This document shows, piece by piece, positions 1 to 38,293 of a DNA stretch of 64,000 nt. A program made the translations under genes and the position numbers. The stretch comes from Arenicola marina (taxonomy: Eukaryota > Annelida > Polychaeta > Arenicolidae), in contig OZ025264.1 in the NCBI GenBank assembly GCA_964019135.1, positions 2,294,001 to 2,358,000 of the forward strand, in the 5' to 3' direction. How positions within the stretch are numbered: position 1 is the stretch's first letter; each line of letters begins with the position of its first letter. The notes below the pieces were generated by a model. It was not told where the DNA came from and did no database searches. It was given only the letters and a program-made list of their open reading frames with translations.

Positions 1-1109
1 GTCAGTCTGGACACACCTAGTGACACCTACCATGATGACTGTGAGTGAGAGGGTCAGTCTGGACACCCCTAGTTACACGTACCATGATGACTGTGAGTGA
101 GAGGGTCAGTCTGGAGACGCCTAGTGACACTTACCATGATGACTGTGAGTGAGAGGGTCAGTCTGGACACCCCTAGTGACACTTACCATGATGAATGTGA
201 GTGAGAGGGTCAGTCTGGACACACCTAGTGACACCTACCATGATGACTGTGAGTGAGAGGGTCAGTCTGGACACACCTAGTGACACTTACCATGATGACT
301 GTGAGTGAGAGGGTCAGTCTGGACACACCTAGTGACACTTACCATGATGACTGTGAGTGAGAGGGTCAGTCTGGACGCACCTAGTTACACGTACCATGAT
401 GACTGTGAGTGAGAGGGTCAGTCTGGACGCACCTAGTGACACCTACCATGATGACTGTGAGTGAGAGGGTCAGTCTGGACACACCTAGTGACACTTACCA
501 TGATGACTGTGAGTGAGAGGGTCAGTCTGGACACACCTAGTGACACCTACCATGATGACTGTGAGTGAGAGGGTCAGTCTGGAGACGCCTAGTGACACTT
601 ACCATGATGACTGTGAGTGAGAGGGCCAGTCTGGACGCACCTAGTTACACGTACCATGATGACTGTGAGTGAGAGGGTCAGTCTGGACGCACCTAGTGAC
701 ACCTACCATGATGACTGTGAGTGAGAGGGTCAGTCTGGACACCCCTAGTGACACCTACCATGATGACTGTGAGTGAGAGGGTCAGTCTGGACACCCCTAG
801 TGACACTTACCATGATGACTGTGAGTAAGAGGGTCAGTCTGGACGCACCTAGTGACACCTACCATGATGACTGTGAGTGAGAGGGTCAGTCTGGACACCC
901 CTAGTGACACCTACCATGATGACTGTGAGTGAGAGGGTCAGTCTGGAGACGCCTAGTGACACTTACCATGATGACTGTGAGTGAGAGGGCCTGTCTGGAC
1001 ACCCCTAGTGACACCTACCATGATGACTGTGAGTGAGAGGGTCAGTCTGGACACCCCTAGTGACACTTACCATGATGACTGTGAGTGAGAGGGTCAGTCT
1101 GGACACCCC
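1..1109 (-). repeat. 52-bp minisatellite carrying a 5' splice site
   Basis: About 21 tandem copies of a 52-bp unit run from the window edge into the exon at 1071-1245. Read on the minus strand, each unit holds the last ~30 bases of that exon (coding TLSLTVIM), the donor GTAAGT or GTAGGT, and about 15 bases of intron. The array is cut by the window edge, so its full length is unknown. Each unit also contains CACTCACAG, an acceptor-like string 8 bases before the donor. Because 52 is not a multiple of 3, use of an outer donor would shift the frame. Confidence 0.95.
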
Positions 1110-1245
1110 TCCGAAGAAGGATGCCGCCCCGATGAGAGCCAGAGCGCCCGGATCGATCCACTTCCAGAAGAGTTTGACCGGGACTCCTCCGTGGATGTCG
1201 ACCAGAGCCCGACCGACGACGCGGCCGTACAGACCGCCGATAAAC
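1071..1245 (-). CDS. CLC chloride/proton exchanger, exon covering helices N-O-P (last exon in window)
   Basis: This 175-bp exon is read on the minus strand. The acceptor CTCCAG precedes 1245 and the donor GTAAGTG follows 1071. It completes the Leu codon begun in the exon at 6453-6624 (CT plus G) and adds 58 codons, ending in phase 0. The peptide starts FIGGLYGRVVGRALVDIHGG and ends with GALALIGAASFFGG and then VSRLTLSLTVIM. This matches the CLC block around helices N to P, which in ClC-7 reads like ALMGAAAQLGG...RMTLSLTVIM. Both splice sites lie inside tandem arrays built from copies of themselves. The following exon, with helices Q/R and the CBS domains, lies beyond position 1. Confidence 0.92.
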
Positions 1246-1619
1246 CTGGAGACACATAAACACAGATAAACCTGGAGACACATAAACACAGATAAACCTG
1301 GAGTCACATAAACACAGATAAACCTGGAGACACAGATAAACCTGGAGACACACATAAACACAGATAAACCTGGAGACACATAAACACAGATAAACCTGGA
1401 GACACAGATAAACCTGGAGACACACATAAACACAGATAAACCTGGAGACACATAAACACAGATAAACCTGGAGACACACATAAACACAGATAAATCTGGA
1501 GACAGATAAACCTGGAGACACACATAAACACAGATAAACCTGGAGACACACATAAACACAGATAAACCTGGAGACACACATAAACACAGATAAACCTGGA
1601 GACACACATAAACACACAT
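1239..1619 (-). repeat. 26-28-bp minisatellite carrying a 3' splice site
   Basis: About 14 units of 26 or 28 bases, with some 17-base short forms, start at the acceptor of the exon at 1071-1245. On the minus strand every unit contains TCTCCAG followed by GTTTATC, which is the acceptor plus the first seven exon bases, and then a TGTGTTTATGTGTG filler. The acceptor is therefore copied many times upstream of the exon. The nearest extra acceptor would add 26 bases and shift the frame. Confidence 0.93.
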
Positions 1620-3684
1620 AACTGATCTTGTTATTGACAACATACTGGGCGTGTAAACCGGCACTGACATACGACGATCTATATATTATGGAGAGGCACT
1701 TTATACTTCGCTTAAGCTGAATGGACTAATGGTTCACCGTATGGCGACACTAATTATAGTCACTTGACAAATGTACGACCATTTTAAATATATTTCTACA
1801 GCGTCTTGTGGTTGTGGTTTAACGACCATACAGGGAGATTGGTTTTATCATGTCATAGCAAGGGACAAGATCAATAGCTACACTCGGGAGCGTTCGTTCT
1901 GCCTGAGTCTCTGGACTATTCGGTGATTAGCCTACGGGGACTTACTGAGCAACAAGGAAATACCGGAATAAGAACAAGATAACGTGTCATATACACATTG
2001 TCGACGATATCTCAGTATAAATCATTACAAACTTATTGCACACATTTTTGTCCTAATATGTGTTTGACGTAACATAATATGTTAATACTATGTTAATACT
2101 ATGTTAATACTATGTTAATACTATGCACGACGCGATCTGAATTAAATATCTCTTTCTGCTTCCTGATGCATGCGTACAAATAATGAATACTTAATTAACT
2201 ACACTTTTGACAGGGATGACGTCACATTTTTTAACTGGAGAGTTTATACCAATTGAACAATATTTTCTTATGCGTGTAGAATGATTGCACTGTTTCATGG
2301 CCCGTTCGTTTAAGGTATTAACTTATTAACTCTTAAAGAATTGAAACTTGGTCGCAACGTCGCAATATACGTGTGCTGCTTTATAGCCCTGCTGTGTCGC
2401 CACGTGCCAGGTGGGCATAATATGGGTTATTTACCCATTCTCGGACTTGAGTCGCCCGCCCACGTCTAACTCCGAATGTAATTGGCAGGTAATAAAGGTT
2501 GCCTGACAGAGCCGAGCGGTCTACTCGGCAATCTATGCAAGTCACAAACGTTAAGAGAATATATCATGCAACGCGCCGCCTAGCGGACCCCACTCGCACC
2601 ATTTGTCGAGATCCTGGCGTACCTCCACACCCACTGACCTTTCTCCGGACGCGATGGGGGGAGGGGGCAGGTGCCGATGAGGTGGGGGAGGGGGGGGGGG
2701 GGGGCTGGGGAGGGGCGTACACGTTCAATCTCAGGCACCAGGGGAGGGGGGGGGGGTTAGTTGGGGTCCGTGTGGGTGATGGTGGGTTCGAGCGCGGGGG
2801 TTGGGGGTGGGACTAAGAGGGGGAATCTCGCGGAATCTCGCGGTAAACAGGACCAGCGAACACGTGACCAGACTGAGAGAGTACAGCGCCATCTGGCGAC
2901 TGTGTCTGGAACCGTGATGACTCCTGACCTTGTGAGGGTCACGTCGTTATTAGCGTTCGCGGGTCACGGGACCGTGATCGACATACGGAAGTTAACACGT
3001 GACCGGAATCAGACAAAGCTGGATTCCGGCGACGCTGCCCCCCCCCCACACTTCCCCCTCCCCCTCCCCTCTTGGGTGATATATGGGTCGGCACGCTGAA
3101 GCGATGAGCACGTTTTAGGGTATCACTAAAAGGGATGCTGAGGTGGAAATAACAGGAATTCACAGAATCGCTACACCATTTTGGAAGCTGGTGGCTTTTT
3201 CCGATCATGTGCTCTATAACATTAATTACCTTGTTCACCTGAACAGCATGAAGACATAAGAACCACAGGTATTATGTGTGTACATTACAAGCAGTTTCCT
3301 TGTTGTATAGGGCAGGGTGTGACATCTTCCTGTAAAGGTTAGGATCGGGCGGTTTTGGAGGATTGCCTCATAATATGAGGTACGCAGACAGTATCTAACC
3401 TGGAGTAAGACCTCCGTCCCGTGCTATGGCCAAAATGTTACAAACGAGTTGTGACGCCGCCCTAGCAGTGGGGAAGCTATAGTCTAGCCTCAGGCTGATA
3501 ACTGATACGCGCTGGTATCAGATGAGCGAAAGACGCCTAAGAAACTTACAGACAGCCATGTAACCTTATCGAGAATACGTTAACTGGATAATATTGACAA
3601 AAACATGATACATTCTACCCCTCTCGTATAATTATTGAAAGTTATTATTTCAACGAAGTCAAATGTAATCAAGCGAACGCTAGA
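1620..3684. other. Intronic sequence, no gene seen
   Basis: This is intron between the CLC exons at 1071-1245 and 6453-6624. It is AT-rich unique sequence to about 2450, then contains G-rich runs (2680-2810) and C-rich runs (3040-3075). Four copies of TATGTTAATAC lie at 2078-2125. The short reading frames here overlap homopolymer runs and look non-coding. Confidence 0.6.
2078..2125 (+). repeat. 11-bp tandem repeat, 4 copies
   Basis: TATGTTAATAC is repeated four times almost perfectly within AT-rich intron DNA. Confidence 0.85.
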
Positions 3685-5045
3685 CCTAGTAGACTCCGAG
3701 GCGCGTAGGCCCCTAGACTCAGAGGCGCGTAGGCGCGTAGACTCAGAGGCGCGTAGGCGCGTAGACTCAGAGGCGCGTAGGCGCGTAGACTCAGAGGCGC
3801 GTAGGCCCCTAGACTCAGAGGCGCGTAGGCGCGTAGACTCAGAGGCGCGTAGGCGCGTAGACTCAGAGGCGCGTAGGCGCGTAGACTCAGAGGCGCGTAG
3901 ACTCAGAGGCGCGTAGGCGCGTAGACTCAGAGGCGCGTAGGCGCGTAGACTCAGAGGCGCGTAGGCGCGTAGACTCAGAGGCGCGTAGGCGCGTAGACTC
4001 AGAGGCGCGTAGACTCAGAGGCGCGTAGGCGCGTAGACTCAGAGGCGCGTAGGCGCGTAGACTCAGAGGCGCGTAGGCGCGTAGACTCAGAGGCGCGTAG
4101 GCGCGTAGACTCAGAGGCGCGTAGGCCCCTAGACTCAGAGGCGCGTAGGCGCGTAGACTCAGAGGCGCGTAGGCGCGTAGACTCAGAGGCGCGTAGGCGC
4201 GTAGACTCAGAGGCGCGTAGGCGCGTAGACTCAGAGGCGCGTAGACTCAGAGGCGCGTAGGCGCGTAGACTCAGAGGCGCGTAGACTCAGAGGCGCGTAG
4301 GCGCGTGGACTCAGAGGCGCGTAGGCGCGTAGACTCAGAGGCGCGTAGGCGCGTAGACTCAGAGGCGCGTAGGCGCGTAGACTCAGAGGCGCGTAGACTC
4401 AGAGGCGCGTAGGCGCGTAGACTCAGAGGCGCGTAGGCGCGTAGACTGAGAGGCGCGTAGACTCAGAGGCGCGTAGGCGCGTAGACTCAGAGGCGCGTAG
4501 GCCCCTAGACTCAGAGGCGCGTAGGCGCGTAGACTCAGAGGCGCGTAGGCGCGTAGACTCAGAGGCGCGTAGGCCCCTAGACTCAGAGGCGCGTAGGCGC
4601 GTAGACTCAGAGGCGCGTAGGCGCGTAGACTCAGAGGCGCGTAGGCGCGTAGACTCAGAGGCGCGTAGACTCAGAGGCGCGTAGGCGCGTAGACTCAGAG
4701 GCGCGTAGGCGCGTAGACTCAGAGGCGCGTAGGCGCGTAGACTCAGAGGCGCGTAGGCGCGTAGACTCAGAGGCGCGTAGACTCAGAGGCGCGTAGGCGC
4801 GTAGACTCAGAGGCGCGTAGGCGCGTAGACTCAGAGGCGCGTAGGCCCCTAGACTCAGAGGCGCGTAGGCGCGTAGACTCAGAGGCGCGTAGGCGCGTAG
4901 ACTCAGAGGCGCGTAGGCGCGTAGACTCAGAGGCGCGTAGACTCAGAGGCGCGTAGGCGCGTAGACTCAGAGGCGCGTAGGCGCGTAGACTCAGAGGCGC
5001 GTAGGCGCGTAGACTCAGAGGCGCGTAGGCGCGTAGACGCAGAGG
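3685..5045 (+). repeat. 24/15-bp GC-rich minisatellite
   Basis: About 60 copies of a unit starting GACTCAGAGGCGCGTA, with or without the extra GGCGCGTA block, extend over 1.36 kb. Long (24 bp) and short (15-16 bp) units alternate irregularly, and a GGCCCCTA variant recurs at several points. The unit keeps a plus-strand frame open at the left end (reads DSEARRRV repeatedly), but this is a by-product of the repeat. Confidence 0.95.
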
Positions 5046-5489
5046 CGCTTTGTGCGCATAGTTTTTCTCCAGCTAGTAGAGGCTAGTAGGAGTGGGTGAA
5101 GCAGCCCAAGCGGATGTTCCTTATCTGAGTCTATTAGGAAGCGCATTGTTTGCTATTCCGAAGAGGAAGTAAAAAATGATCTGGACATAGATCTAGTAGC
5201 TAGTAGAAGGTTGGACTTTATTTTTGACCCCGCACTGTCTCTTGCACAGTCGGCAGTCATACCAGGTAAATTATGTTTTTTTTATTTTTAAGAATTGGAA
5301 ATTTATTTTGCCATATAGTCTGTTATGTCCCAAAATTAAATAACATTACTAAATATATGGTCGGAAAAAAAGTGTATGAAATATTTTACAATGACGCCAG
5401 GCGGTCGAATTCTTACGACCTTACTCTGGGCTCACCAAGTCACAACTGTCATCATTTATGTCGGGGCCTCTTCAGAGATACGGCGAAGT
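5046..5489. other. Intronic sequence, no gene seen
   Basis: Unique, moderately AT-rich intron DNA sits between the GC-rich array and the donor-derived array. I see no coding signal. Confidence 0.5.
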
Positions 5490-6470
5490 ACGACTTGGAC
5501 AGTGACGTGACATTTCGTATTCACAGCATAGGGACGAGTCGGGTGAGGTGGGAGGTGGGCAGTGAGTAGCCCCATGTGACGCTGTTGGTTTGAAGTTTAG
5601 GTATCATAGCACACAATAACGATGGTTTGATGGAACGTACCATTAAGAGCACTTAGTCGCCCACGCAAACAAATCTTCCCCCCACATTTCCTGCCTGCGG
5701 ATATGAGACTGTTGTGCGGAGCAACAACTGTCTCATATGGGACTAGGCAGTGAGGGGACAGTTTGTACCCACAGCCTGGGGACAAGTTGGGCAGTGAGGT
5801 GACAGTTCGTACTCACAGCATGGGGACGACATGGGCAGTGAGGTGACAGTTCGTACTCACAGCATGGGGACGACATGTGCGAGGTACGAGTTGGGCAGTG
5901 AGGTGACAGTTCGTACTCACATCATGGGGACGACATGGGCAGTGAGGTGACAGTTCGTACTCACAGCATGGGGACGACATGGGCAGTGAGGTGACAGTTC
6001 GTACTCACAGCATGGGGACGACATGGGTAGTGAGGTGACAGTTCGTACTCACAGCATGGGGACGACATGTGCGAGGTACGAGTTGGGCAGTGAGGTGACA
6101 GTTCGTGCTCACAGCGTAGGGACGACATGGGCATTGAGGTGACAGTTCGTACTCACAGCATGGGGACGACATGTGCGAGGTACGAGTTGGGCAGTGAGGT
6201 GACAGTTCGTACTCACAGCATGGGGACGACATGGGCAGTGAGGTGACAGTTCGTACTCACAGCATGGGGACGACATGGGCAGTGAGGTGACAGTTCGTAC
6301 TCACAGCATAGGGACGACATGGGCAGTGAGGTGACAGTTCGTACTCACAGCATGGGGACGACATGGGCAGTGAGGTGACAGTTCGTACTCACAGCATGGG
6401 GACGACATGGGCGAGGTACGAGTTGGGCAGTGAGGTGACAGTTCGTACTCACAGCATGGGGACGACGATG
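5490..6470 (-). repeat. 44-bp minisatellite carrying a 5' splice site
   Basis: About 15 regular copies lie at 5740-6470, and a diverged copy sits at 5490-5570. On the minus strand the unit contains GTCGTCCCCATGCT, the last 14 bases of the exon at 6453-6624, followed by GTGAGTACGAACTGTCACC, the donor and start of the intron. Some units carry a 16-bp insertion (GTGCGAGGTACGAGTT on plus). Unit lengths of 44 and 60 mean that a neighbouring donor (+44) would shift the frame. Confidence 0.94.
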
Positions 6471-6624
6471 CCGCTGGCCACGGCCGTGCCCGCCGACCAG
6501 CAGGACATGAGGAAGTAGACCGGCAGGATGGAGAGCAGCGAGCTGTAGCCGAACTGTAAGTGGGTCCGGCGAGAGAAGAGGAACCTGAGGGCCTGCTGTC
6601 CGTTCACGTTCAGCAGGCTCGACA
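6453..6624 (-). CDS. CLC chloride/proton exchanger, exon covering helices L-M-N
   Basis: This exon is 172 bp. The acceptor is TCTTCCCCAG before 6624 and the donor is GTGAGTACG after 6453. It supplies TG to finish the Val codon from the exon at 8433-8710, 56 full codons, and CT to start a Leu codon. The peptide runs SSLLNVNGQQALRFLFSRRT, then THLQFGYSSLLSILPVYFLM, then SCWSAGTAVASGIVVPM. This fits the CLC segment that reads ...[23 protein letters not shown] in ClC-7. The anion-site motif GxFxP appears here as GIVVP, with Val in place of the usual Phe. The donor lies at the edge of the 44-bp array at 5490-6470. Confidence 0.93.
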
Positions 6625-6663
6625 CTGGGGAAGAGACGAGCGGGGTGAACATGGTGACGGGCA

Positions 6664-7460
6664 GCGGGGGGGGGGGGGGTGGGAGAGGTGGGAGAGGCAG
6701 GAGGTGAGAGAGGCAGGAGGTGGTGCAGCGGGGGTGGGAGGGGTGGGAGGGGTGGGAGGTGGGGGAGGTAGAAGGTGGGAGAGGTGGGAGAGGTGGGAGA
6801 GGTGGGAGGTGGGGGAGGCAGGAGGTGGGGGAGGTGGGAGAGGTGGGAGGGGTGGGAGAGGTGGGAGAGGTGGGAGGTGGGGGAGGCAGGAGGTGGGGGA
6901 GGCAGGAGGTGGGGGAGGTGGGAGAGGCAGGAGGTGGGAGATGCAGGAGGTAGGAAAGGCAGGAGGTGGGAGATGCAGGAGGTGGAAGAGGTAGGAGAGG
7001 TGGGAGAGGCAGGAGGTGGGAGAGGCAGGAGGTGGGATATGCAGGAGATGGGAGAGGCAGGAGGTGGGAGAGGTGGGAGAGGCAGGAGGTGGGAGAGGTG
7101 GGAGAGGCAGGAGGTGAGAGATGCAGGAGATGGGTGCGGCAGGAGGTGGGAGAGGCAGGAGGTGGAAGAGGCAGGAGGTGGGAGAGGCAGGAGGTGGGAG
7201 AAGCAGGAAGTGGGAGATGCAGGAGGTGGGAGAGGCAGGAGGTGGGAGATGCAGGAGGTGGGAAATGCAGGAGGTGGGAGAGGCAGGAGGTGGGAGAGGC
7301 AGGAGGTTGGGGAGGCAGGAGGTGGGAGAGGTGGGAGAGGCAGGAGGTGGGAAGGCAGGAGGTGGGAGAGGCAGGAGGTGGGCAAGACAGGAGGTGGGAG
7401 AGGCAGGAGGTGGAAGAGGCAGGAGGTGGGAGGTTGGAGAAGCAGGCGGTTGGAGAGGCA
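6664..7460 (+). repeat. 15-bp purine-rich array upstream of an exon acceptor
   Basis: About 50 units of GGTGGGAGAGGCAGGA and close variants. On the minus, gene-sense strand it is an 800-base pyrimidine-rich stretch ending about 40 bases upstream of the acceptor at 6624. All frames stay open over long distances because the unit is short and stop-free, so the 140-430-codon frames here are not genes. Confidence 0.93.
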
Positions 7461-8432
7461 GGAGGCGAGAGAGGCAGGGGGTAGGGGACAAACCGAGACA
7501 GGGGATAGAGGGATGGGGGAGGCAGGGGTAGGGAAGGCAGGGGTGAGCAGAGACCGAGAGAGTTTGTGAGGGAGGAGGGGGAGACAGAAGGAGTAAGTAC
7601 AGGGGTCAGAGAGAGCGACACCGAGAGTGGAGAAGGTAGTAAACGGGGGAGACGGAAAGGGTGATTAGGGGGTGTGGGGACGAGGGGGGGGGGATGGGCT
7701 ATGGGTTTAGATAGGGGGTGAGTAATAAAGGAAGAGGCAAGAGGCAAGGCACGGCGATTGGCAGAATAAAAATGTACAAGGGCAGGAAAGAGCCAGGAGA
7801 GGGGAAAGGGGAACGCGCAGAGAGAAGGGCGATCGGATAAAACAGAGGAGTCAATGACAGAGATATCATACAGTTAAAGTTACATGTGGAGCTGACCGTT
7901 GCGACGGCTGTACCAAAATAAACATAAACAGGAAATGTTTCCTTTGACCACAAGCAGTGTCAACGGCCACCGCCAAAGAAAAAGTGGCGCTCCGGACGCT
8001 TCTATTGTCTCATATAATTTAGCGCTTGGGGGTCCCTGTCGGTGGCACCGGTAAACGACTTGTGTACACACGTTTATGACGTTTCAAATCAGCACAAGTT
8101 TTCATTTTTGTGGCGGACAATTCATGAATTTGAAATGTTTTGCTCATTGGCAGATAATTGGTGAGCGATATGGTAGGTGTTTATTGTCTATTATGAACCT
8201 TAAGGCCTTAGGTTTGTGTTCTTATACGCAAATTTGGCATTCAAAAACAGCGAAACAACTCCACATGCAACTTTAACTCACTTTACTATAATAATGTACC
8301 GTTAAATAATATAAACCGTCATTTAATATGATTATTCATTGCTAACATGCATGCCTTACGTAAGAACAGCCCGTTTAGAAATACATACATATATATATCA
8401 TTAGTACATAGAAGGCCCTGTGCAGTCCGTAC
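7461..8432. other. Intronic sequence, no gene seen
   Basis: Purine-rich flank of the array to about 7750, then unique DNA. No exon-like block is visible before 8433. Confidence 0.5.
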
Positions 8433-8710
8433 CTTCGTTGTACTCTCCCTGTACGAGCGTTCCGTTGACCCAGCGCGGGGGCACACACCAGTAGGTCTGC
8501 AGCGTGCTGTCCACGGCGTAGCTATAGCGAGGGTCGGTGGGACAGTGCCGCAAGCTCTCGTTGGTGAACCCAATGAGTTCATCGGAGTGGTACCCGGCGT
8601 TGCCTTGGGTACTGCGCCGGTGGCGCGTGTCGTGGTCTGCATAGATATCGTAGCTGGCGTCGTGTGCGGTTGAGCCTTTGTCAGAATTGCCGTGGCTGTG
8701 GTCGCTATCA
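8433..8710 (-). CDS. CLC chloride/proton exchanger, exon for the luminal K-M loop
   Basis: This exon is 278 bp. The acceptor is TATGTCCCCAG before 8710 and the donor is GTACGG after 8433. It gives T to finish a Ser codon, 92 codons, and G to start a Val codon. The peptide begins DSDHSHGNSDKGSTAHDASY and ends TYWCVPPRWVNGTLVQGEYNE. The final EYNE matches the conserved EYN just before helix L/M in ClC-7 and CLC-d (GEYNSMA, EYNDLAT). The rest is a long, hydrophilic, His/Asp/Ser-rich loop with two N-glycosylation sequons (NES in FTNESL and NGT in VNGTL). It is longer than the equivalent loop in ClC-7. Glycosylation of this loop is known for ClC-6, so lumenal exposure is a reasonable inference. 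Confidence 0.9.
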
Positions 8711-9036
8711 CTGGGGACATAGACAGAACACGTCTTAGGCTTCATTAGGGCTTATAATATACATGTCACAAATTAGAGACAACTCAACATAGAGGGAAAT
8801 CTATATGTGTGGGCGATAGAGCCTAGTCACATGTCGTTACAGTTTAGTTTTCGAATGTCTAAAACATATACGTTAAAAATATACGCATGGTAACATCACG
8901 GAAGAATCGTCATATTACGTTGATCGAATTGCTGTAGGCGTACGGTAACAACGAATTATCAATTATGGTCTGGCATTCGACTGCGTAGCCTACCAATGCT
9001 ATATTGCTCACAGATGTGCTGTGCACTGTTTTGGTG
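8711..9036. other. Intronic sequence, nothing seen
   Basis: AT-rich unique intron DNA without repeats or exon-like blocks. Confidence 0.5.
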
Positions 9037-9230
9037 GAACATTTTCATGATGACGTCATTTACATGATGCTGATGCTCACGATGACGTCACAAACACGGT
9101 ACTGACGTAACATTATCGTCATGACGTAACATACTCGTGATTACGTAATATATTCGGGATGACGTAACATATATGTCATGACGTCACGGATTTAATGCTG
9201 ACGTCACTGACCTGATGCTGACGTGGCTAA
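9037..9230. repeat. Degenerate ~20-bp TGACGT-containing array at a donor site
   Basis: Nine copies of a TGACGT or TTACGT core occur at spacing close to 20 bases, several as full palindromes TGACGTCA. ATGCTGACGT occurs at 9194-9203 in the intron and again at 9214-9223 inside the exon that starts at 9212, so the array crosses the exon boundary. TGACGTCA is also the cAMP-response-element consensus, but the regular spacing makes a decayed tandem repeat the simpler reading. Confidence 0.6.
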
Positions 9231-9336
9231 CTTGAGCGGAGGCAGTGGCGGAGGCCGTGGAGTCCGTCACCGGACATTCCATGGGCTTGCAGGGGAAGGC
9301 GGCCGGAAGGTAGATGGTGATGGTGCCCCAAATAAT
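9212..9336 (-). CDS. CLC chloride/proton exchanger, exon for the end of helix K
   Basis: This exon is 125 bp. The acceptor is CTGTGTTACAG before 9336 and the donor is GTCAGT after 9212, a weaker but acceptable site. It holds 41 codons plus AG. The peptide starts IIWGTITIYLPAAFPCKPME and continues CPVTDSTASATASAQVSHVSI. It joins in phase 0 to the exon at 10286-10480 and in phase 2 to the exon at 8433-8710. The position corresponds to ClC-7 helix K and the start of the luminal loop (...TATVAFVLIYSSRDCQPL). The start and end were chosen because only these sites keep phase on both sides. Confidence 0.87.
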
Positions 9337-9699
9337 CTGTAACACAGCCACGTGCAGAAGAAAGATACGGTAAGATGCCATGGTCTAATAGTCCCTTACA
9401 GCGAAGGTCAATGTAATGTCTCGAGTTACGATGACATGGCTAGGTTGATATGGTCCAACACATTCTCACTATTTCATTAGAATATTGATTATGGAGTTTT
9501 AGTATCAAGTATTATTCTGATAATCTTACAAACGAATCTACAAATAGTTATCCGAGCCCATAACCTTCTATCTGGATTCGTGACGTGCTGCCCGGATCTA
9601 CATCGCGTTCCTACTCATCACTCGTCAGCGGGTCCGTAATACTGTGTCCAGATCAGTGACCGGATATGATCTGGTCGGAGCATTAGCCTTCCAACCAGA
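9337..9699. other. Intronic sequence, no gene seen
   Basis: Unique intron DNA. From about 9590 it begins to resemble degraded copies of the following 20-bp array (GGATC...TGACC). Confidence 0.5.
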
Positions 9700-10201
9700 C
9701 CAATGATCTTCTGGTCACTGGACTTGTTAGATCAATAACCTTAGGGTCGGATCAATGACCTTCCGGACGGATCAATGACCTTCCGGTCGGATCCATGACT
9801 TTCCTGTCGGATCCATGACCTTCCGTCGGATCAATGACCTTCCGGTCGGATCCATGACCTTCCGGTCGGATCAATGATTTTTCGGTCGAATCAATGACCT
9901 TCCAATCGGATTACTGACCTTCCGGTCGGATCAATGACCTTCCCGTCGGACCAATGACTTTCCGGTCGGATCAATGACCTTCCGATAGGATCAATGACCT
10001 TCCGGTCGGATCAATAATTTTCCAGTCGGGTCAATGACCTCCCGGTCGGATCAATGACCTTCCGGTCGGATTAATGACCTTCCGGTCGGATCAATAACCT
10101 TCCGGTCGGATTAATGAACTTCCGGTAGGATCAATAATTTCCGGTAGGATCAGTGGCCTTCGGGTCGGATCCATGACCTTGCGATCGGATCTATGACCTA
10201 C
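9700..10201 (-). repeat. 20-bp minisatellite, possibly donor-derived
   Basis: About 25 units of GGATCAATGACCTTCCGGTC with many point variants. The minus-strand core GGAAGGTCATGGATCC differs at only two of 16 positions from GGTAGGTCATGGAACC, the donor region of the exon at 10286-10480. The array runs directly into the 28-bp donor repeat at 10202. Confidence 0.9.
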
Positions 10202-10313
10202 CGTGATGAAGATGGGTTCCATGACCTACCATGATGAGTATGGGTTCCATGACCTACCATGATGAGGATGGGTTCCATGACCTACCATGATGAGGATGGG
10301 TTCCATGAAGCGC
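10202..10313 (-). repeat. 28-bp tandem repeat carrying a 5' splice site
   Basis: Four copies start at 10202, 10230, 10258 and 10286; the last lies in the exon. On the minus strand each unit reads GGTTCCATGACC on plus, that is exon end CCCATCCTCATCATG followed by the donor GTAGGTCATGGAA. The unit is not a multiple of 3, so only the innermost donor at 10286 keeps frame with the next exon. Confidence 0.94.
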
Positions 10314-10480
10314 ATGATTCGCTGGACGGTGGGCCGCCTGATCCGTGAGATAAGGCGGCGCCGCGCCCGGTTAATCTTGAGGTTAACGATGGTGAAGAGA
10401 GCGCCCATGATGCCTCCGATAAAGCCAAGCAGCATGGCCGGGATGAACATGATGACGTTGACAGGGATGGCGTTTCCAAT
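10286..10480 (-). CDS. CLC chloride/proton exchanger, exon covering helix J and start of K
   Basis: This exon is 195 bp, 65 codons, phase 0 on both sides. The acceptor is CTATTTACAG before 10480 and the donor is GTAGGTC after 10286. The peptide begins IGNAIPVNVIMFIPAMLLGF, continues IGGIMGALFTIVNLKINRAR, and ends RFMEPILIM. It aligns with the CLC helix J signature seen in ClC-7 ([26 protein letters not shown]), followed by a basic cytosolic linker rich in Arg (RARRRLISRIRRP). Both ends lie in tandem repeats of their own junctions. Use of the acceptor one repeat upstream (10540) would extend it by 20 in-frame codons. Confidence 0.94.
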
Positions 10481-10860
10481 CTGTAAATAGATCATGTAAT
10501 GGATGAACATGATGACGTTGACAGTGATGGCGTTTCTAATCTGTAATTAGATCACGCAATGGGTGAACATGATGACGTTGACATGGATGGCGTTCCCAAT
10601 CTGTAATTAGATCACGCAATGGATGAACATCATGACGGTGACAGTGATGGCGTTTCTAATCTGTAATTAGATCACATAATGGATGAACATGATGACGTTG
10701 ACAGGGATGGCGTTTCCAATCTGTAAATAGATCATGTAATGGATGAACATGATGACATTGACAGGGATGACGTTCCCAATCTGTAATCAGATTACGCAAT
10801 GGATGAACATGATGATATTGGCACAGATGGCGTTTCTAATCTGTAATTAGATTACGTAAT
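10441..10860 (-). repeat. 60-bp tandem repeat carrying a 3' splice site and exon start
   Basis: Seven copies of exactly 60 bp; the first (10441-10500) is the real junction. On the minus strand each unit has about 20 intron bases ending TTTACAG or ATTACAG, followed by 40 bases coding IGNAIPVNVIMFI or a variant. Copies differ by a few substitutions. Units with GTAAATAG on plus keep the exon frame open, while those with GTAATTAG put a TAA stop in frame. Confidence 0.95.
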
Positions 10861-14895: not shown

Positions 14896-15139
14896 CTTGA
14901 AGATGATGTACTTGTCGGTGTTGAAGAGGCCGAAGGTGCCACTGAAGCGGAAGGCCGTGAAGGCCGAGTTGAAGAAGTCCGCCGTGAAACAGGCTACCAT
15001 GGACGCGAAGAAAGTCATCCAGCCGAGCTTGAGGCTCCAGAAGCTCGATACCTCCTCCATGGCGAACAGCAGACCCCCCACCGGGGCCGAGAAGGCTGCC
15101 GACACCCCCGCGGCCGCCCCGGCCAGGGTAAAGTTCCTC
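14896..15139 (-). CDS. CLC chloride/proton exchanger, exon covering helices G-H-I (proton glutamate)
   Basis: This exon is 244 bp. The acceptor is CTTTTCCAG before 15139 and the donor is GTAAGG after 14896. It adds G to finish an Arg codon and 81 codons, ending in phase 0. The peptide starts [20 protein letters not shown], continues [20 protein letters not shown], and ends with [27 protein letters not shown] and EEVSSFW are nearly identical to ClC-7. The EE pair includes the residue equivalent to Glu203 of the E. coli CLC, needed for proton transport, so this protein should be an exchanger rather than a channel. No splice-site array flanks this exon. Confidence 0.95.
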
Positions 15140-16165: not shown

Positions 16166-16258
16166 CGGTCCTCGGAGTTCCTGAATCTTTCAAAGAATGG
16201 AAGCGAAAACTTCAGGGTTCTTGAGCGGAACTGACTGATACCCGTGCCGACAATACTT
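16166..16258 (-). CDS. CLC chloride/proton exchanger, short exon for helix F end and F-G linker
   Basis: This exon is 93 bp. The acceptor is TTGTTTACAG before 16258 and the donor is GTAAGTGA after 16166. It contributes A to a Gly codon, 30 codons, and CG to an Arg codon. The peptide is SIVGTGISQFRSRTLKFSLP then FFERFRNSED. The ClC-7 equivalent is [34 protein letters not shown], so G.GISQ.RS..L and F..FR are conserved. It is too short to stand out alone; the phase match with both neighbours is the main support. Confidence 0.9.
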
Positions 16259-16652: not shown

Positions 16653-16828
16653 CCGATGTGGATCATGGGTCCCTCTGGCCCCACGGGCAGCCCGGCACCC
16701 ACGGCGCAGCAGCACGAGAAGAACTTGACGGCGAAAGTGCGCATGTTGAGCACGTGTCGCATCACTGTGCCATTGAGGAAGCCAATCACTTCCGGTATGC
16801 CGGACCCCGCGGCCGGCATGCTGAAGAA
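16653..16828 (-). CDS. CLC chloride/proton exchanger, exon with selectivity and gating motifs (helices D-E-F)
   Basis: This exon is 176 bp. The acceptor is CCTCTTGCAG before 16828, and the donor GTACTG after 16653 is a poor match to GTRAGT. It holds 58 codons plus GG. The peptide begins FFSMPAAGSGIPEVIGFLNG and ends CAVGAGLPVGPEGPMIHI. GSGIP is the CLC anion-selectivity motif, with Ser (chloride type) and not the Pro of nitrate exchangers. GPEGP is the G(K/R)EGP motif with the gating glutamate kept but Pro in place of the basic residue. The G.PVG.EGPMIH context is typical of intracellular CLCs. Confidence 0.94.
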
Positions 16829-18904: not shown

Positions 18905-19973
18905 TTTTTTTTTTTTTATTTTTTTTTTTTTTATAATTATTTATTTCCAAAAATAGCAGTTTCGTGTCACATTACATAAAATACAAGGATATAATGTCAT
19001 TTTCATACATCTGATCATCAAACACAAGAAGAATACAATACAAGAAAGATACCCTACAAAAAGATCTAATACTAGAAAAGTACAATACAAAAAGCAAGAG
19101 CTGGTAGTTTTGAAAGCATTCAAAATGCCAATGGTATATAAACAGAGGTAGTTCAAAAAGCTGAAATTATACAATTCCATTTGTTTACAAATAAGGTTTT
19201 ACTAAAATGTTCGTTATGGTCTACTATAGGTTTTTCGATTTGATAGTAATATTTTATTAATCTTGGGATATCCCGCATACAAGGAGAAACCTCTCTACAC
19301 TTGCACGAAAAAATATATTTCTTAGCCAGTAGTATAAGATGGTTTAATAAACGGTCTTTTTCTGAGTTCTTTATGCCGAACAAAACAACCGAGAGTGAGA
19401 AACTTGAGCTGATCTCTATATTTGAGTTACCTTCGACCAAATTAACAAAAGAATTCCAAAATTGACTAACAATGGGACAATGGTGAAACAGATGCTCGAT
19501 TGACTCAGACGCGGCTTTACAAAAGGTACAGGTGTCCTCACTCTTTATTTTACATCGTTTTAAAAACACGTTGGTTGTTATAAATTGGCAAATAACTTTA
19601 TATTGAAAACTTCTTAACCGTTCGTCGACTGTTGTCGTTTTTGCAAGCAAATAAATCTGTTTCCATTCGTTTTCCGAGAAATTGATATTTAGTGAGACTG
19701 ACCATTTAAGTTCATGCTTTCCCGATGATAGTTTCTTAACTAAAAACTTATATACTGCGTTACATACGTTGTCATTGCTCGACAAAACACATAGCCCTGG
19801 TGCTACCACACTTACAAGTTTGGTACCAAGTCGCTCACTTTCACATTTCCATGCTCTCGGAATTGAGTGAATAAGAGTAAAAAAGTCTAGAAAGTTAATA
19901 CTTATTTCATAAATATTACAAAAGTCTTGCCAACCCAGTGGCGTCCCATTGGTATCAATAACATCATTATTAT
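18905..19973 (-). mobile_element. 5'-truncated non-LTR retrotransposon (LINE)
   Basis: The element is oriented on the minus strand. Identical 13-bp direct repeats TCGACGTACAATT flank it at 18892-18904 and 19974-19986, the expected target-site duplication. The 3' end is a 31-base A-rich tail (T-rich at 18905-18935 on plus). It is intact from some way inside ORF2 to the tail, so it was 5'-truncated on insertion. It landed just after the diverged 44-bp repeat copy. The two flanking repeats are perfect, suggesting a fairly recent insertion. Confidence 0.9.
19153..19973 (-). pseudogene. LINE ORF2 C-terminal fragment with zf-RVT motif
   Basis: About 273 codons lie within the LINE. An open frame starts upstream at 20040, but its first 22 residues are flanking host DNA on the far side of the target-site duplication. 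The fragment has the C-terminal zinc-binding motif of reverse transcriptases of this type: CTFCKAASESIEHLFHHC (CxxC, then H and C), followed by PIVSQFW. It lacks endonuclease and polymerase domains, so it cannot be active. The lack of internal stops fits recent insertion. Confidence 0.85.
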
Positions 19974-25799: not shown

Positions 25800-26245
25800 A
25801 ACCACAGCGGCGTGCGAGGGATTTGTTGGTGTGCAACTGAAGCGGCGTGCGAGGGGATTTGTTGGTGTGTAACTGAAGCGGCGTGCAAGAGGGATTTGTT
25901 GGTGTGTAACTGAAGCGCCGTACGAGGGGATTTGTTGGTGTGTAACTGAAGCGGCGTGCGAGGGGATTTGTTGGTGTGTAACTGAAGCGGCGTGCGAGGG
26001 GATTTGTTGGTGTGTAACTGAAGCGGCGTGCGAGGGGATTTGTTGGTGTGTAACTGAAGCGGCGTGCGAGGGGATTTGTTAGTGTGTAACTGAAGCGGCG
26101 TGCGAGGGGATTTGTTGGTGTGTAACTGAAGCGGCGTGCGAGGGGATTTGTTGGTGTGTAACTGAAGCGGCGTGCGAGGGGATTTGTTGGTGTGTAACTG
26201 AAGCGGCGTGCGAGGAGATTTGTTGGTGTGTAACTGAAGGGGGCG
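25800..26245 (+). repeat. 36-bp minisatellite
   Basis: Twelve copies of a 36-bp unit containing GCGGCGTGCGAGGGGATTTG and TTGGTGTGTAACTGAA. It ends 45 bases from the exon at 26291, so it does not include the splice donor. The unit length is a multiple of 3, which explains the 171- and 212-codon minus frames. Confidence 0.95.
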
Positions 26246-26290: not shown

Positions 26291-26368
26291 CGCGACGGAA
26301 GCGGAACTGGCCATGACGAAGAGCACGCTGTAGCCTAAGACCCAGCCCCAGGCTTTCAGCAGCTTCAC
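26291..26368 (-). CDS. CLC chloride/proton exchanger, exon for helix C
   Basis: This exon is 78 bp, 26 codons, phase 0 on both sides. The acceptor is TTTATTGCAG before 26368 and the donor is GTGAGTGACG after 26291. The peptide is VKLLKAWGWVLGYSVLFVMA then SSASVA. It follows the exon at 30482-30611 and runs directly into FFSMPAAGSGIP. The ClC-7 counterpart is [32 protein letters not shown], so this is the hydrophobic helix C. Sequence identity is low in this region in all CLCs; splice phase and hydropathy are the support. Confidence 0.88.
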
Positions 26369-30481: not shown

Positions 30482-30611
30482 CTGCATGAAGTGCTCGGCT
30501 CGTTCCCATTTGATCTCACTGATGAGATGGATGATTTGGTGCAGCATAAAGCCTATCAGACCGACAGTAACACCGATCAAACCCATCATAATCCATCTGT
30601 CCCAGTCCAAT
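30482..30611 (-). CDS. CLC chloride/proton exchanger, exon for helix B (first exon found)
   Basis: This exon is 130 bp. The acceptor is GTTGTGTTGCAG before 30611 and the donor is GTTGGTACC after 30482. It starts with one base that finishes a codon from an unseen upstream exon, then 43 codons, ending in phase 0. The peptide begins LDWDRWIMMGLIGVTVGLIG, continues FMLHQIIHLISEIKWERAEH and ends FMQ. ClC-7 has [31 protein letters not shown] at this place. Human CLCs have a cytosolic N-terminus of over 100 residues before it, so one or more exons lie upstream (higher coordinates), but I could not identify them. Confidence 0.9.
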
Positions 30612-31969: not shown

Positions 31970-34900
31970 GGGTGAAGGGATGTGGGGAGAACGGGTGTTT
32001 GGGACGAAGATGTGTTGGGAGAAGAGGTGTGATGCAACGGGTTGTGGGGAGAACGGGTGTTTGGGACGAAGATGTGTTGGGAGGAGGGGTGTGATGCGAC
32101 GGGATGTGGGGAGAACGGGTGTTTGGGACGAAGATGTGTTGGGAGGAGGGGTGTGATGCGACGGGATGTGGGGAGAACGGGTGTTTGGGACGAAGATGTG
32201 TTGGGAGGAGGGGTGTGATGCGACGGGTTGTAGGGAGAACGGGTGTCTGGGACGAAGATGTGTTGGGAGAAGGGGTGTGATGCGACGGGATGTGGGGAGA
32301 ACGGGTGTTTGGGACGAAGATGTGTTGGGAGAAGGGGTGTGATGCGACGGGTTGTGGGGAGAACGGGTGTTTGGGACGAAGATGTGTTGGGAGAAGGGGT
32401 GTGATGCGACGGGTTGTGGGGAGAACGGGTGTTTGGGACGAAGATGTGTTGGGAGAAGGGGCGTGATGCGACGGGTTGTGGGGAGAACGGGTGTTTGGGA
32501 CGAAGATGTGTTGGGAGGAGGGGCGTAATGCGACGGGTTGTGGGGAGAACGGATGTTTGGAACGAAGATGTGTTGGGAGGAGGGGTGTGATGCGACGGGA
32601 TGTGGGGAGAACGGGTGTTTGGGACGAAGATGTGTTGGGAGGAGGGGTGTGATGCGACGGGTTGTGGGGTGAACGGGTGTTTGGGACGAAGATGTGTTGG
32701 GAGGAGGGGTGTGATGCGACGGGTTGTGGGGTGAACGGGTGTTTAGGACGAAGATGTGTTGGGAGGAGGGGTGTGATGCGACGGGTTGTGGGGAGAACGG
32801 GTGTTTGGAACGAAGATGTGTTGGGAGGAGGGGTGTGATGCGACGGGTTGTGGGGAGAACGGGTGTTTGGGACGAAGATGTGTTGGGAGGAGGGGTGTGA
32901 TGCGACGGGTTGTGGGGAGAACGGGTGTTTGGGACGAAGATGTGTTGGGAGGAGGGGTGTGATGCGACGGGTTGTGGGGAGAACGGGTGTTTGGGACGAA
33001 GATGTGTTGGGAGGAGGGGTGTGATGCGACGGGTTGTGGGGAGAACGGGTGTTTGGGACGAAGATGTGTTGGGAGGAGGGGTGTGATGCGACGGGTTGTG
33101 GGGAGAACGGGTGTTTGGGACGAAGATGTGTTGGGAGGAGGGGTGTGATGCGACGGGTTGTGGGGAGAACGGGTGTTTGGGACGAAGATGTGTTGGGAGG
33201 AGGGGTGTGATGCGACGGGTTGTGGGGAGAACGGGTGTTTGGGACGAAGATGTGTTGGGAGGAGGGGTGTGATGCGACGGGTTGTGGGGAGAACGGGTGT
33301 TTGGGACGAAGATGTGTTGGGAGGAGGGGTGTGATGCGACGGGTTGTGGGGAGAACGGGTGTTTGGGACGAGGATGTGTTGGGAGAAGGGGTGTGATGCG
33401 ACGGGTTGTGGGGAGAACGGGTGTTTGGGACGAAGATGTGTTGGGAGAAGGGGTGTGATGCGACGGGTTGTGGGGAGAACGGGTGTTTGGGACGAAGATG
33501 TGTTGGGAGGAGGGGTGTGATGCGACGGGTTGTGGGGAGAACGGGTGTTTGGGACGAAGATGTGTTGGGAGAAGGGGTGTGATGCGAAGGGTTGTGGGGA
33601 GAACGGGTGTTTGGGACGAAGATGTGTTGGGAGGAGGGGTGTGATGCGACGGGTTGTGGGGAGAACGGGTGTTTGGGACGAAGATGTGTTGGGAAGAGGG
33701 GTGTGATGCGACGGGTTGTGGGGAGAACGGGTGTTTGGGACGAAGATGTGTTGGGAGGAGGGGTGTGATGCGACGGGTTGTGGGGTGAACGGGTGTTTGG
33801 GACGAAGATGTGTTGGGAGGAGGGGTGTGATGCGACGGGTTGTGGGGAGAACGGGTGTTTGGAACGAAGATGTGTTGGGAGGAGGGGTGTGATGCGACGG
33901 GTTGTGGGGAGAACGGGTGTTTGGGACGAAGATGTGTTGGGAGGAGGGGTGTGATGCGACGGGTTGTGGGGAGAACGGGTGTTTGGGACGAAGATGTGTT
34001 GGGAGGAGGGGTGTGATGCGACGGGTTGTGGGGAGAACGGGTGTTTGGGACGAAGATGTGTTGGGAGGAGGGGTGTGATGCGACGGGTTGTGGGGAGAAC
34101 GGGTGTTTGGGACGAAGATGTGTTGGGAGGAGGGGTGTGATGCGACGGGTTGTGGGGAGAACGGGTGTTTGGGACGAAGATGTGTTGGGAGGAGGGGTGT
34201 GATGCGACGGGTTGTGGGGAGAACGGGTGTTTGGGACGAAGATGTGTTGGGAGGAGGGGTGTGATGCGACGGGTTGTGGGGAGAACGGGTGTTTGGGACG
34301 AAGATGTGTTGGGAGAAGGGGTGTGATGCGACGGGTTGTGGGGAGAACGGGTGTTTGGGACGAAGATGTGTGGGGAGAAGGGGTGTGATGCGACGGGTTG
34401 TGGGGAGAACGGGTGTTTGGGACGAAGATGTGTTGGGAGAAGGGGTGTGATGCGACGGGTTGTGGGGAGAACGGGTGTTTGGGACGAAGATGTGTTGGGA
34501 GAAGGGGTGTGATGCGACGGGTTGTGGGGAGAACGGGTGTTTGGGACGAAGATGTGTTGGGAGAAGGGGTGTGATGCGACGGGTTGTAGGGAGAACGGGT
34601 GTTTGGGACGAAGATGTGTTGGGAGAAGGGGTGTGATGCGACGGGTTGTGGGGAGAACGGGTGTTTGGGACGAAGATGTGTTGGGAGAAGGGGTGTGATG
34701 CGACGGGTTGTGGGGAGAACGGGTGTTTGGGACGAAGATGTGTTGGGAGAAGGGGTGTGATGCGACGGGTTGTGGGGAGAACGGGTGTTTGGGACGAAGA
34801 TGTGTTGGGAGAAGGAGTGTGATGCGACGGGTTGTGGGGAGAACGGGTGTTTGGGACGAAGATGTGTTGGGAGAAGGGGTGTGATGCGACGGGTTGTGGG

Positions 34901-37900
34901 GAGAACGGGTGTTTGGGACGAAGATGTGTTGGGAGAAGGGGTGTGATGCGACGGGTTGTGGGGAGAACGGGTGTTTGGGACGAAGATGTGTTGGGAGAAG
35001 GGGTGTGATGCGACGGGTTGTGGGGAGAACGGGTGTTTGGGACGAAGATGTGTTGGGAGGAGGGGTGTGATGCGACGGGTTGTGGGGAGAACGGGTGTTT
35101 GGGACGAAGATGTGTTGGGAGGAGGGGTGTGATGCGACGGGTTGTGGGGAGAACGGGTGTTTGGGACGAAGATGTGTTGGGAGGAGGGGTGTGATGCGAC
35201 GGGTTGTGGGGAGAACGGGTGTTTGGGACGAAGATGTGTTGGGAGGAGGGGTGTGATGCGACGGGTTGTGGGGAGAACGGGTGTTTGGGACGAAGATGTG
35301 TTGGGAGGAGGGGTGTGATGCGACGGGTTGTGGGGAGAACGGGTGTTTGGGACGAAGATGTGTTGGGAGGAGGGGTGTGATGCGACGGGTTGTGGGGAGA
35401 ACGGGTGTTTGGGACGAAGATGTGTTGGGAGGAGGGGTGTGATGCGACGGGTTGTGGGGAGAACGGGTGTTTGGGACGAAGATGTGTTGGGAGGAGGGGT
35501 GTGATGCGACGGGTTGTGGGGAGAACGGGTGTTTGGGACGAAGATGTGTTGGGAGGAGGGGTGTGATGCGACGGGTTGTGGGGAGAACGGGTGTTTGGGA
35601 CGAAGATGTGTTGGGAGGAGGGGTGTGATGCGACGGGTTGTGGGGAGAACGGGTGTTTGGGACGAAGATGTGTTGGGAGGAGGGGTGTGATGCGACGGGT
35701 TGTGGGGAGAACGGGTGTTTGGGACGAAGATGTGTTGGGAGGAGGGGTGTGATGCGACGGGTTGTGGGGAGAACGGGTGTTTGGGACGAAGATGTGTTGG
35801 GAGGAGGGGTGTGATGCGACGGGTTGTGGGGAGAACGGGTGTTTGGGACGAAGATGTGTTGGGAGGAGGGGTGTGATGCGACGGGTTGTGGGGAGAACGG
35901 GTGTTTGGGACGAAGATGTGTTGGGAGGAGGGGTGTGATGCGACGGGTTGTGGGGAGAACGGGTGTTTGGGACGAAGATGTGTTGGGAGGAGGGGTGTGA
36001 TGCGACGGGTTGTGGGGAGAACGGGTGTTTGGGACGAAGATGTGTTGGGAGGAGGGGTGTGATGCGACGGGTTGTGGGGAGAACGGGTGTTTGGGACGAA
36101 GATGTGTTGGGAGGAGGGGTGTGATGCGACGGGTTGTGGGGAGAACGGGTGTTTGGGACGAAGATGTGTTGGGAGGAGGGGTGTGATGCGACGGGTTGTG
36201 GGGAGAACGGGTGTTTGGGACGAAGATGTGTTGGGAGGAGGGGTGTGATGCGACGGGTTGTGGGGAGAACGGGTGTTTGGGACGAAGATGTGTTGGGAGG
36301 AGGGGTGTGATGCGACGGGTTGTGGGGAGAACGGGTGTTTGGGACGAAGATGTGTTGGGAGGAGGGGTGTGATGCGACGGGTTGTGGGGAGAACGGGTGT
36401 TTGGGACGAAGATGTGTTGGGAGGAGGGGTGTGATGCGACGGGTTGTGGGGAGAACGGGTGTTTGGGACGAAGATGTGTTGGGAGGAGGGGTGTGATGCG
36501 ACGGGTTGTGGGGAGAACGGGTGTTTGGGACGAAGATGTGTTGGGAGGAGGGGTGTGATGCGACGGGTTGTGGGGAGAACGGGTGTTTGGGACGAAGATG
36601 TGTTGGGAGGAGGGGTGTGATGCGACGGGTTGTGGGGAGAACGGGTGTTTGGGACGAAGATGTGTTGGGAGGAGGGGTGTGATGCGACGGGTTGTGGGGA
36701 GAACGGGTGTTTGGGACGAAGATGTGTTGGGAGGAGGGGTGTGATGCGACGGGTTGTGGGAGAACGGGTGTTTGGACGAAGATGTGTTGGGAGGAGGGGT
36801 GTGATGCGACGGGTTGTGGGGAGAACGGGTGTTTGGGACGAAGATGTGTTGGGAGGAGGGGTGTGATGCGACGGGTTGTGGGGAGAACGGGTGTTTGGGA
36901 CGAAGATGTGTTGGGAGGAGGGGTGTGATGCGACGGGTTGTGGGGAGAACGGGTGTTTGGGACGAAGATGTGTTGGGAGGAGGGGTGTGATGCGACGGGT
37001 TGTGGGGAGAACGGGTGTTTGGGACGAAGATGTGTTGGGAGGAGGGGTGTGATGCGACGGGTTGTGGGGAGAACGGGTGTTTGGGACGAAGATGTGTTGG
37101 GAGGAGGGGTGTGATGCGACGGGTTGTGGGGAGAACGGGTGTTTGGGACGAAGATGTGTTGGGAGGAGGGGTGTGATGCGACGGGTTGTGGGGAGAACGG
37201 GTGTTTGGGACGAAGATGTGTTGGGAGGAGGGGTGTGATGCGACGGGTTGTGGGGAGAACGGGTGTTTGGGACGAAGATGTGTTGGGAGGAGGGGTGTGA
37301 TGCGACGGGTTGTGGGGAGAACGGGTGTTTGGGACGAAGATGTGTTGGGAGGAGGGGTGTGATGCGACGGGTTGTGGGGAGAACGGGTGTTTGGGACGAA
37401 GATGTGTTGGGAGGAGGGGTGTGATGCGACGGGTTGTGGGGAGAACGGGTGTTTGGGACGAAGATGTGTTGGGAGGAGGGGTGTGATGCGACGGGTTGTG
37501 GGGAGAACGGGTGTTTGGACGAAGATGTGTTGGGAGGAGGGGTGTGATGCGACGGGTTGTGGGGAGAACGGGTGTTTGGACGAAGATGTGTTGGGAGGAG
37601 GGGTGTGATGCGACGGGTTGTGGGGAGAACGGGTGTTTGGGACGAAGATGTGTTGGGAGGAGGGGTGTGATGCGACGGGTTGTGGGGAGAACGGGTGTTT
37701 GGGACGAAGATGTGTTGGGAGAGGGGTGTGATGCGACGGGTTGTGGGGAGAACGGGTGTTTGGGACGAAGATGTGTTGGGAGGAGGGGTGTGATGCGACG
37801 GGTTGTGGGGAGAACGGGTGTTTGGGACGAAGATGTGTTGGGAGAAGGGGTGTGATGCGACGGGTTGTGGGGAGAACGGGTGTTTGGGACGAAGATGTGT

Positions 37901-38293
37901 TGGGAGGAGGGGTGTGATGCGACGGGTTGTGGGGAGAACGGGTGTTTGGGACGAAGATGTGTTGGGAGGAGGGGTGTGATGCGACGGGTTGTGGGGAGAA
38001 CGGGTGTTTGGGACGAAGATGTGTTGGGAGGAGGGGTGTGATGCGACGGGTTGTGGGGAGAACGGGTGTTTGGGACGAAGATGTGTTGGGAGAAGGGGTG
38101 TGATGCGACGGGTTGTGGGGAGAACGGGTGTTTGGGACGAAGGATGTGTTGGGAGAAGGGGTGTGATGCGACGGGTTGTGGGGAGAACGGGTGTTTGGGA
38201 CGAAGATGTGTTGGGAGAAGGGGTGTGATGCGACGGGTTTGGTGGGGAGAACGGGTGTTTGGGACGAAGATGTGTTGGGAGGAGGGGTGTGAT
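31970..38293 (+). repeat. 62-bp satellite, about 100 copies
   Basis: A highly uniform 62-bp unit containing GGGACGAAGATGTGTTGGGA, GGAGGGGTGTGATGCGACGG and GTTGTGGGGAGAACGG extends over 6.3 kb and runs into the assembly gap. Blocks of GAGAAGG units (32250-32460, 34300-35040) alternate with long GAGGAGG blocks. A TGTTTGGAACG variant recurs exactly 17 units apart (32801 and 33855). Confidence 0.98.

Follow-up and report, generated by a model that had tools for sequence, protein, structure and literature searches.

Tandem arrays that contain predicted splice sites in a CLC gene and other genes of the annelid Arenicola marina

Results

The stretch of DNA considered here (the window) comprises 64,000 nucleotides of Arenicola marina contig OZ025264.1, positions 2,294,001 to 2,358,000 (G000:C19:2294001-2358000), within a genome assembly of 867 Mb in 762 contigs. 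Its minus strand carries a gene similar to CLC-6/7, several of whose splice junctions lie inside tandem arrays (minisatellites). Ten predicted exons (a through j) run from 30611 down to 1071, and exons k, l, and m were found to the left of the window. AG and GT are present at all 20 borders of exons a to j, and when these exons are joined at the splice sites nearest the exon, the reading frame contains no stops. The predicted protein matches the Pfam family Voltage_CLC (E=1.6e-61), its closest solved structure is that of CLC-7 (E=2e-46), and it aligns with CLC-7 at the array-bearing borders when the exon-proximal copies are taken. The open frame and the homology point to the exon-proximal copy as the predicted splice site. 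Arrays detected by Tandem Repeats Finder (TRF) cover 6% of exons a to l and 46% of the introns of the gene.

At five of the 20 junctions in the window (donors 1071, 6453, and 10286; acceptors 1245 and 10480), the junction is itself one unit of an array extending into the intron (Table 1). An earlier note on this DNA had read the five from the letters alone, and TRF together with a search for copies centered on each junction bears it out, as regards also the 20 junctions, the unit lengths, and the presence of arrays on both sides of exons 1071-1245 and 10286-10480. Donor 9212, offered there as a possible sixth case, is indeed touched by an array, but one so short (20 bp x 2.3), its sole second copy lacking GT, that the case is doubtful. 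The sixth CLC case is the acceptor of exon k, the first exon beyond the left edge of the window; this acceptor lies in an array of three copies, all three with CAG. The array at donor 1071 continues leftward past the edge of the window to a total of 1849 bp (35.6 copies), and TRF describes the array at donor 6453 in rows spanning 5746-6412 and, longer, 5823-6466 (44 bp, its multiples or mixtures).

The units are unlike each other, as had been supposed: the consensus units at the window junctions are of different lengths and, judged by eye, of different sequences, and no shared sequence of the introner type was found among them. Even the two ends of the intron between exons i and j bear different units, of 44 bp and 26 bp, unrelated by eye and with much other sequence between. 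The junction-centered search found 34 decoy copies at 1071, 14 at 1245, 14 at 6453, 3 at 10286, and 6 at 10480, with GT or AG intact in every one, so that at the level of sequence the proposed ladders of decoy splice sites are supported. By a simple matrix, decoys score at least as high as the authentic site in 13/34 cases at 1071, 12/14 at 6453, 2/3 at 10286, 13/14 at 1245, and 1/6 at 10480.

A related arrangement is seen at exon l (locus L010, 7936-8007), where a 23-bp array starts at the first base of the intron and so includes the start of the donor and no exon bases.

Table 1. Exons of the CLC gene within the window and arrays at their borders
Feature	Position	Strand	Remarks
Exon a	30482..30611	-	both borders free of arrays
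Exon b	26291..26368	-	36-bp array 25806-26239 begins ~50 nt beyond donor
Exon c	16653..16828	-	both borders free of arrays
Exon d	16166..16258	-	both borders free of arrays
Exon e	14896..15139	-	both borders free of arrays
Exon f	10286..10480	-	open spliced frame, AG/GT borders; arrays at both borders
Exon g	9212..9336	-	open spliced frame; weak array touches donor
Exon h	8433..8710	-	both borders free of arrays
Exon i	6453..6624	-	open spliced frame; array at donor 6453
Exon j	1071..1245	-	open spliced frame, AG/GT borders; arrays at both borders
52-bp array with donor 1071	1..1110	-	TRF and copy search; unit = 40 nt exon + 12 nt intron
26-28-bp array with acceptor 1245	1239..1621	-	TRF and copy search; 7 nt exon per unit
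44-bp array with donor 6453	5746..6466	-	TRF and copy search; higher-order units, ~14-16 nt exon per unit
28-bp array with donor 10286	10193..10308	-	TRF and copy search
60-bp array with acceptor 10480	10441..10860	-	TRF and copy search; 40 nt exon per unit; unit length divisible by three
20 bp x 2.3 array touching donor 9212	9179..9224	-	TRF; weak, one extra copy without GT

Since the CLC gene was chosen because of its arrays, an independent sample of exons carries more weight. Exons were drawn by Pfam family (CLC, myosin, kinesin, and ABC) from the same genome, 95 in total, and an array was counted as entering an exon if it reached 4-70 nt into it. As a null model, pseudo-junctions were set in the flanks of the first set of exons, at distances of 80-1300 nt; arrays entered 5.0% of them overall, 3.9% of those on the donor side and 6.1% of those on the acceptor side. 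For a second, fresh set, in which nearer flanks (80-360 nt) were used, the figures were 5.2% for donors and 11.3% for acceptors. By the same rule, applied to TRF arrays, 5/20 junctions of the CLC gene are entered (two at exon f, two at exon j, and one at exon g; donor 6453 is caught only by the copy search), compared to 6.2% of pseudo-junctions in the introns of that gene (P=0.006).

Of the 176 sampled junctions, 14 are entered by an array, against about 8.8 expected at 5.0% (P=0.06). The entries are unevenly divided: donors account for 12/85, an excess whether judged against 3.9% (P=1e-4, a 3.6-fold increase over the donor-side background) or against 5.0% (P=0.001), while acceptors account for 2/91, which is no excess over the background of 6.1% and slightly low (P=0.08). 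Donors and acceptors differ in the pooled sample (Fisher P=0.004), and still do so when the CLC gene is pooled in (15/97 vs 5/103, P=0.02). In the first set, with borders refined and eight ABC exons added, 9/128 confident junctions are entered, all of them donors (62 donors, 66 acceptors). The donor hypothesis was formed on that set, before the fresh set was drawn; in the latter 4/48 junctions are entered, 3/23 donors and 1/25 acceptors. The CLC gene is itself richer in arrays than the sample (6/23 vs 14/176, P=0.016, the denominator being 24 if both borders of k and l are included), as would be expected of a gene noticed for its arrays.

Unlinked genes located on several chromosomes share this structure. 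Clear cases are a myosin exon ending in GGHINNYLLEK (L019), with 24 decoys, and an ABC exon ending in YYLIQ (L075), with 29. Edges of arrays also fall near borders, from -70 to +30 nt, at 30/176 junctions compared to 13.2 expected (P=2e-5). That measure was selected on the first set, and the local background for it in the fresh set is higher (17% on the acceptor side, 7% on the donor side), so the 9/48 seen there is only mild. In a first pass, in which the edges of hidden Markov model (HMM) matches were taken as borders, 13 array edges had fallen within the final 60 nt of 61 exons.

One kinesin exon (L085, C14:21551347-21552405) is two-sided, as are CLC exons f and j: a 61-bp array crosses its donor, and an array with rows of 38 bp and 71 bp crosses its acceptor.

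Coding sequence proper appears to be spared. Among the 61 of 95 sampled exons that were examined, no array lies wholly within or across the HMM-matched coding sequence, and yet the flanks of sampled exons are rich in arrays; arrays of period at least 7 cover 22.5% of part of the sampled loci, a gene-rich sample. These exons support the earlier note's suggestion that arrays are tolerated only in the direction of the intron.

Arrays that enter donors in the first set are long, with a median of 1547 nt (most cut by the end of the locus), compared to 197 nt for the 146 others (P=3e-5). The contrast is weaker against 13 intronic arrays of period at least 35 (median 351 nt, P=0.006), and arrays over 1 kb make up 7/9 of the donor-entering group and 4/13 of the intronic group of that period (P=0.08). 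The size of the unit may account for part of the difference in length.

Across the 24 arrays searched, the CLC gene included, 240/244 donor decoys retain GT, and AG or GT is retained in 223/230 copies, two of the seven misses being spurious (owing to the coordinate of the exon k border). The decoys are intact probably because the arrays are young. In 20 arrays with at least three decoys, 4/40 GT columns vary, compared to 76/388 non-CpG control columns (one-sided P=0.097), and selection on the GT of decoys is not demonstrated. Over 11 arrays, variable columns are less frequent in the exon part of the unit (80/443) than in the intron part (83/266), but the difference is gone (54/275 vs 28/135) once four arrays rich in runs of C or G (L026, L039, L052, and L058) are set aside by hand. 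Short windows give 60/340 for the exon part and 46/160 for the intron part (P=0.007). By eye, no gradient of identity with distance from the exon is seen. The length of the unit is divisible by three in 5/19 arrays, near chance, so that use of a decoy would mostly break the frame.

Among 124 arrays not at the focal junction, 20 carry a strong donor motif in the sense and 6 in the antisense direction. By eye, nine of the sense arrays lie at donors of neighboring exons (L008, L018, L032, L049, L052, L060, L066, L067, and L075), six were already known, four run off the edge of the locus, and one (L001) does not look exonic. The nine were left out of the rates because they had been located by motif. 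Intronic donor motifs were considered also as an independent sign of U1 function, an idea dropped because 15 of the 20 sense arrays are those of neighboring exons or of donors already known.

Discussion

Tandem duplications of intron-exon borders have been described in lancelet globin genes and called 'mirages', after those of Adh3 (PMC3087553); PGBD5 and TnC are also among lancelet mirage genes (PMC3902484). Either or both borders can be involved, the number of repeats varies between haplotypes, intron gain has been proposed, and data from Adh3 together with reverse transcription PCR of globin transcripts suggest that regular splicing is undisturbed (PMC3087553). As far as the available portions of these reports go, the annelid arrays share with Adh3, the globins BflGb6/9, TnC, and PGBD5 a unit that spans the border, 5' or 3'. 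In Arenicola such units span six junctions of the CLC gene, five of them within the window and one immediately beyond it, and 14/176 in the sample, and most copies keep AG or GT. By their structure, then, the annelid arrays are mirages in a distant lineage and on a larger scale, and the kind itself is already known from lancelets. The scale is one difference: up to 35 copies and 1.8 kb, compared to 3-6 repeats for BflGb6. Another is that the lancelet descriptions in those portions concern single genes, whereas the annelid arrays occur at 14/176 junctions in several gene families and with an excess at donors. For the lancelet globin genes there are RT-PCR data, while the annelid arrays are described from genome sequence.

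We consider it reasonably probable that these mirage-type minisatellites reflect a wide birth of arrays, of which those straddling a border survive and those at donors are further favored. Noncoding segments some tens of bases long would frequently turn into tandem arrays in this annelid, and selection would remove arrays lying wholly in coding sequence. Where the founding segment happened to span the end of an exon, the copy adjoining that exon would stay under selection and remain the working splice site, because in exon definition a short exon would be recognized by the pairing of its nearest acceptor and donor; we infer that the exon-proximal copy is the one used. The remaining copies would lie in the intron as tolerated decoys, and growth and turnover of the array would be confined to the intron side. 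Arrays straddling donors would be favored over those straddling acceptors, and the reason we infer is that extra donors downstream may easily be ignored, while extra acceptors upstream, each with its own pyrimidine tract, may compete.

Several observations weigh against this account. Tolerance by itself cannot raise donors above the intronic background (14% vs 3.9%). Arrays entering donors are also longer than others, a contrast that is weaker against intronic arrays of period at least 35. Within the CLC gene, acceptor arrays are as many as donor arrays (3 and 3); the fresh set alone, at 3/23 vs 1/25, gives P=0.34, and so small a set does not by itself prove the bias; and the array edges close to borders in that set are at 3 donors and 6 acceptors. 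Two of the donors counted are weak, L099 with 8 nt of exon overlap and no decoy in a wider copy search, and L101 with a predicted donor score of -0.5.

The donor excess, which is the new part of the finding, may reflect a process linked to donors. Perhaps some minisatellites form a distinct class, anchored at 5' splice sites: one in about seven donors would start an array, often of at least 1 kb, longer than others and with up to dozens of intact donors. Arrays would then be born or grow preferentially at donors, in a manner coupled to transcription or to U1 binding. We advance this only tentatively. A little more doubtful is the view that the ends of exons, in practice 5' splice sites, trigger tandem duplication, for example through co-transcriptional R-loops or pausing at the step from exon to intron. 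The excess at donors, the array edges near borders, and the nine further arrays at what look like neighboring donors all favor such nucleation, but acceptors are entered no more often than background, and the count of array edges, a measure picked from the first set, is only mildly raised in the fresh one. In its general form, nucleation at exon borders, as the earlier note proposed it, is not supported, since junctions taken together are at most mildly enriched.

Pure chance, whereby some of the arrays filling this genome straddle borders without any excess, fits the junctions taken together, at the rate at which pseudo-junctions are entered; the donor excess and the greater length of donor arrays speak against it, and we regard it as rather unlikely. 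It is improbable that selection has kept and enlarged repeated 5' splice sites for their usefulness, for example as landing pads for the U1 small nuclear ribonucleoprotein in long, repeat-filled introns: the arrays are long and GT is nearly always present, with fewer variable columns than the controls, but the column test is not significant, most of the sense-motif arrays, judged by eye, belong to neighboring or already known donors, and acceptor arrays exist too. The birth of introns from tandemly duplicated AG|GT segments (the Rogers model), to which the earlier note linked the arrays, is highly improbable, for although the units carry intact splice signals, those at the two ends of the intron between i and j are unrelated, and much other sequence separates them.

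Arrays at or near splice sites in other animals offer partial parallels. A human interferon-induced transcript reportedly contains a minisatellite that supplies multiple splice donor sites (Nucleic Acids Res 1995, pmid 7596809). In that gene, known as 6-16, a splice donor is multiplied likewise, but the case is a single human gene and the units are short.

Internal tandem repeats of human genes are minisatellites, some of them at exon-intron borders, that have been tied to new introns or to the elongation of exons in recent paralogs (PMC2812944); in the annelid, by comparison with what the available part of that work describes, the arrays at the two ends of introns are unrelated to one another, and the reading frame passes them over. 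Closer in lineage, intron 1 of an earthworm metallothionein gene contains large minisatellite arrays, as do the introns considered here; in the portion of the report available, these lie within the intron and are not stated to contain a splice site (PMC12783039). For scale, the earthworm genome is 2.65% minisatellites (PMC12130307), compared to the 22.5% given above for sampled loci, a figure measured differently and on a gene-rich sample. In the accessible portions of the open-licence literature, no splice-border arrays were found described outside lancelet and human genes.

The presence of such arrays in an annelid suggests that mirages are not just an oddity of lancelets. With several per cent of sampled borders bearing ladders of near-identical sites, the genome offers a natural experiment in the choice of one site among many equivalents by the spliceosome, and it bears also on a possible influence of transcription or splicing on the places at which tandem repeats arise. 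If donors do anchor a class of their own, then minisatellite expansion would be a main force in intron size. There is a practical side as well: genomes of this kind can mislead gene annotation, as at L007, where a splice scorer chose a decoy acceptor.

Other features of the window

An open stretch at ~19250-19900 on the minus strand, within an intron of the CLC gene, matches zf-RVT (PF13966, E=1.3e-9) and is probably the remnant of a non-LTR (long terminal repeat) retrotransposon. The window also contains a 62-bp array at 31977-38293, of ~102 copies (98% matches by TRF, score 12222), which abuts a run of N at 38294-38493; since the array enters this 200-base run, the interval 31977-38293 is no measure of its true length.

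Methods

For the first set, 76 exon loci were collected and 69 used; the fresh set consisted of 26 exons taken in listing order (20 kinesin, 6 myosin). Splice sites in the sample were picked by a simple score near the edge of the HMM match, and 14 of 190 junctions, having no confident splice site, were set aside, leaving the 176 counted. The acceptor of L007 was added by hand, the scorer having first taken the decoy as the junction. Excluded were L042, L043, L045, L046, and L051 (contaminant contigs), L009 (mitochondrion), L002 and L003 (the gene of the window), and L010 and L011.

Some matches from the searches deserve mention in their own right. On the same contig as the window (G000:C19), at ~26.86-27.70 Mb, eight nearly alike ABC_membrane matches lie on both strands, seven of them equal in score. 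A single TGA interrupts each of the eight, and the group may have arisen by recent amplification in place. The five excluded kinesin matches, on contigs C390, C504, and C536, have frames interrupted, among the matches listed, solely by TAA and TAG, which suggests a contaminant, for example a ciliate, in whose code both codons specify amino acids. The sole COX1 match is on the mitochondrial contig C762, where TGA is decoded as Trp and AGR codons appear to fit Ser at conserved places. The contig reads nad3-trnS-nad2-cox1-trnN-cox2-trnD-atp8-trnY-trnG (nad3, nad2, cox2, and atp8 named by eye), which points to an annelid and not to a lancelet, this being the gene order of Lumbricus and many annelids.

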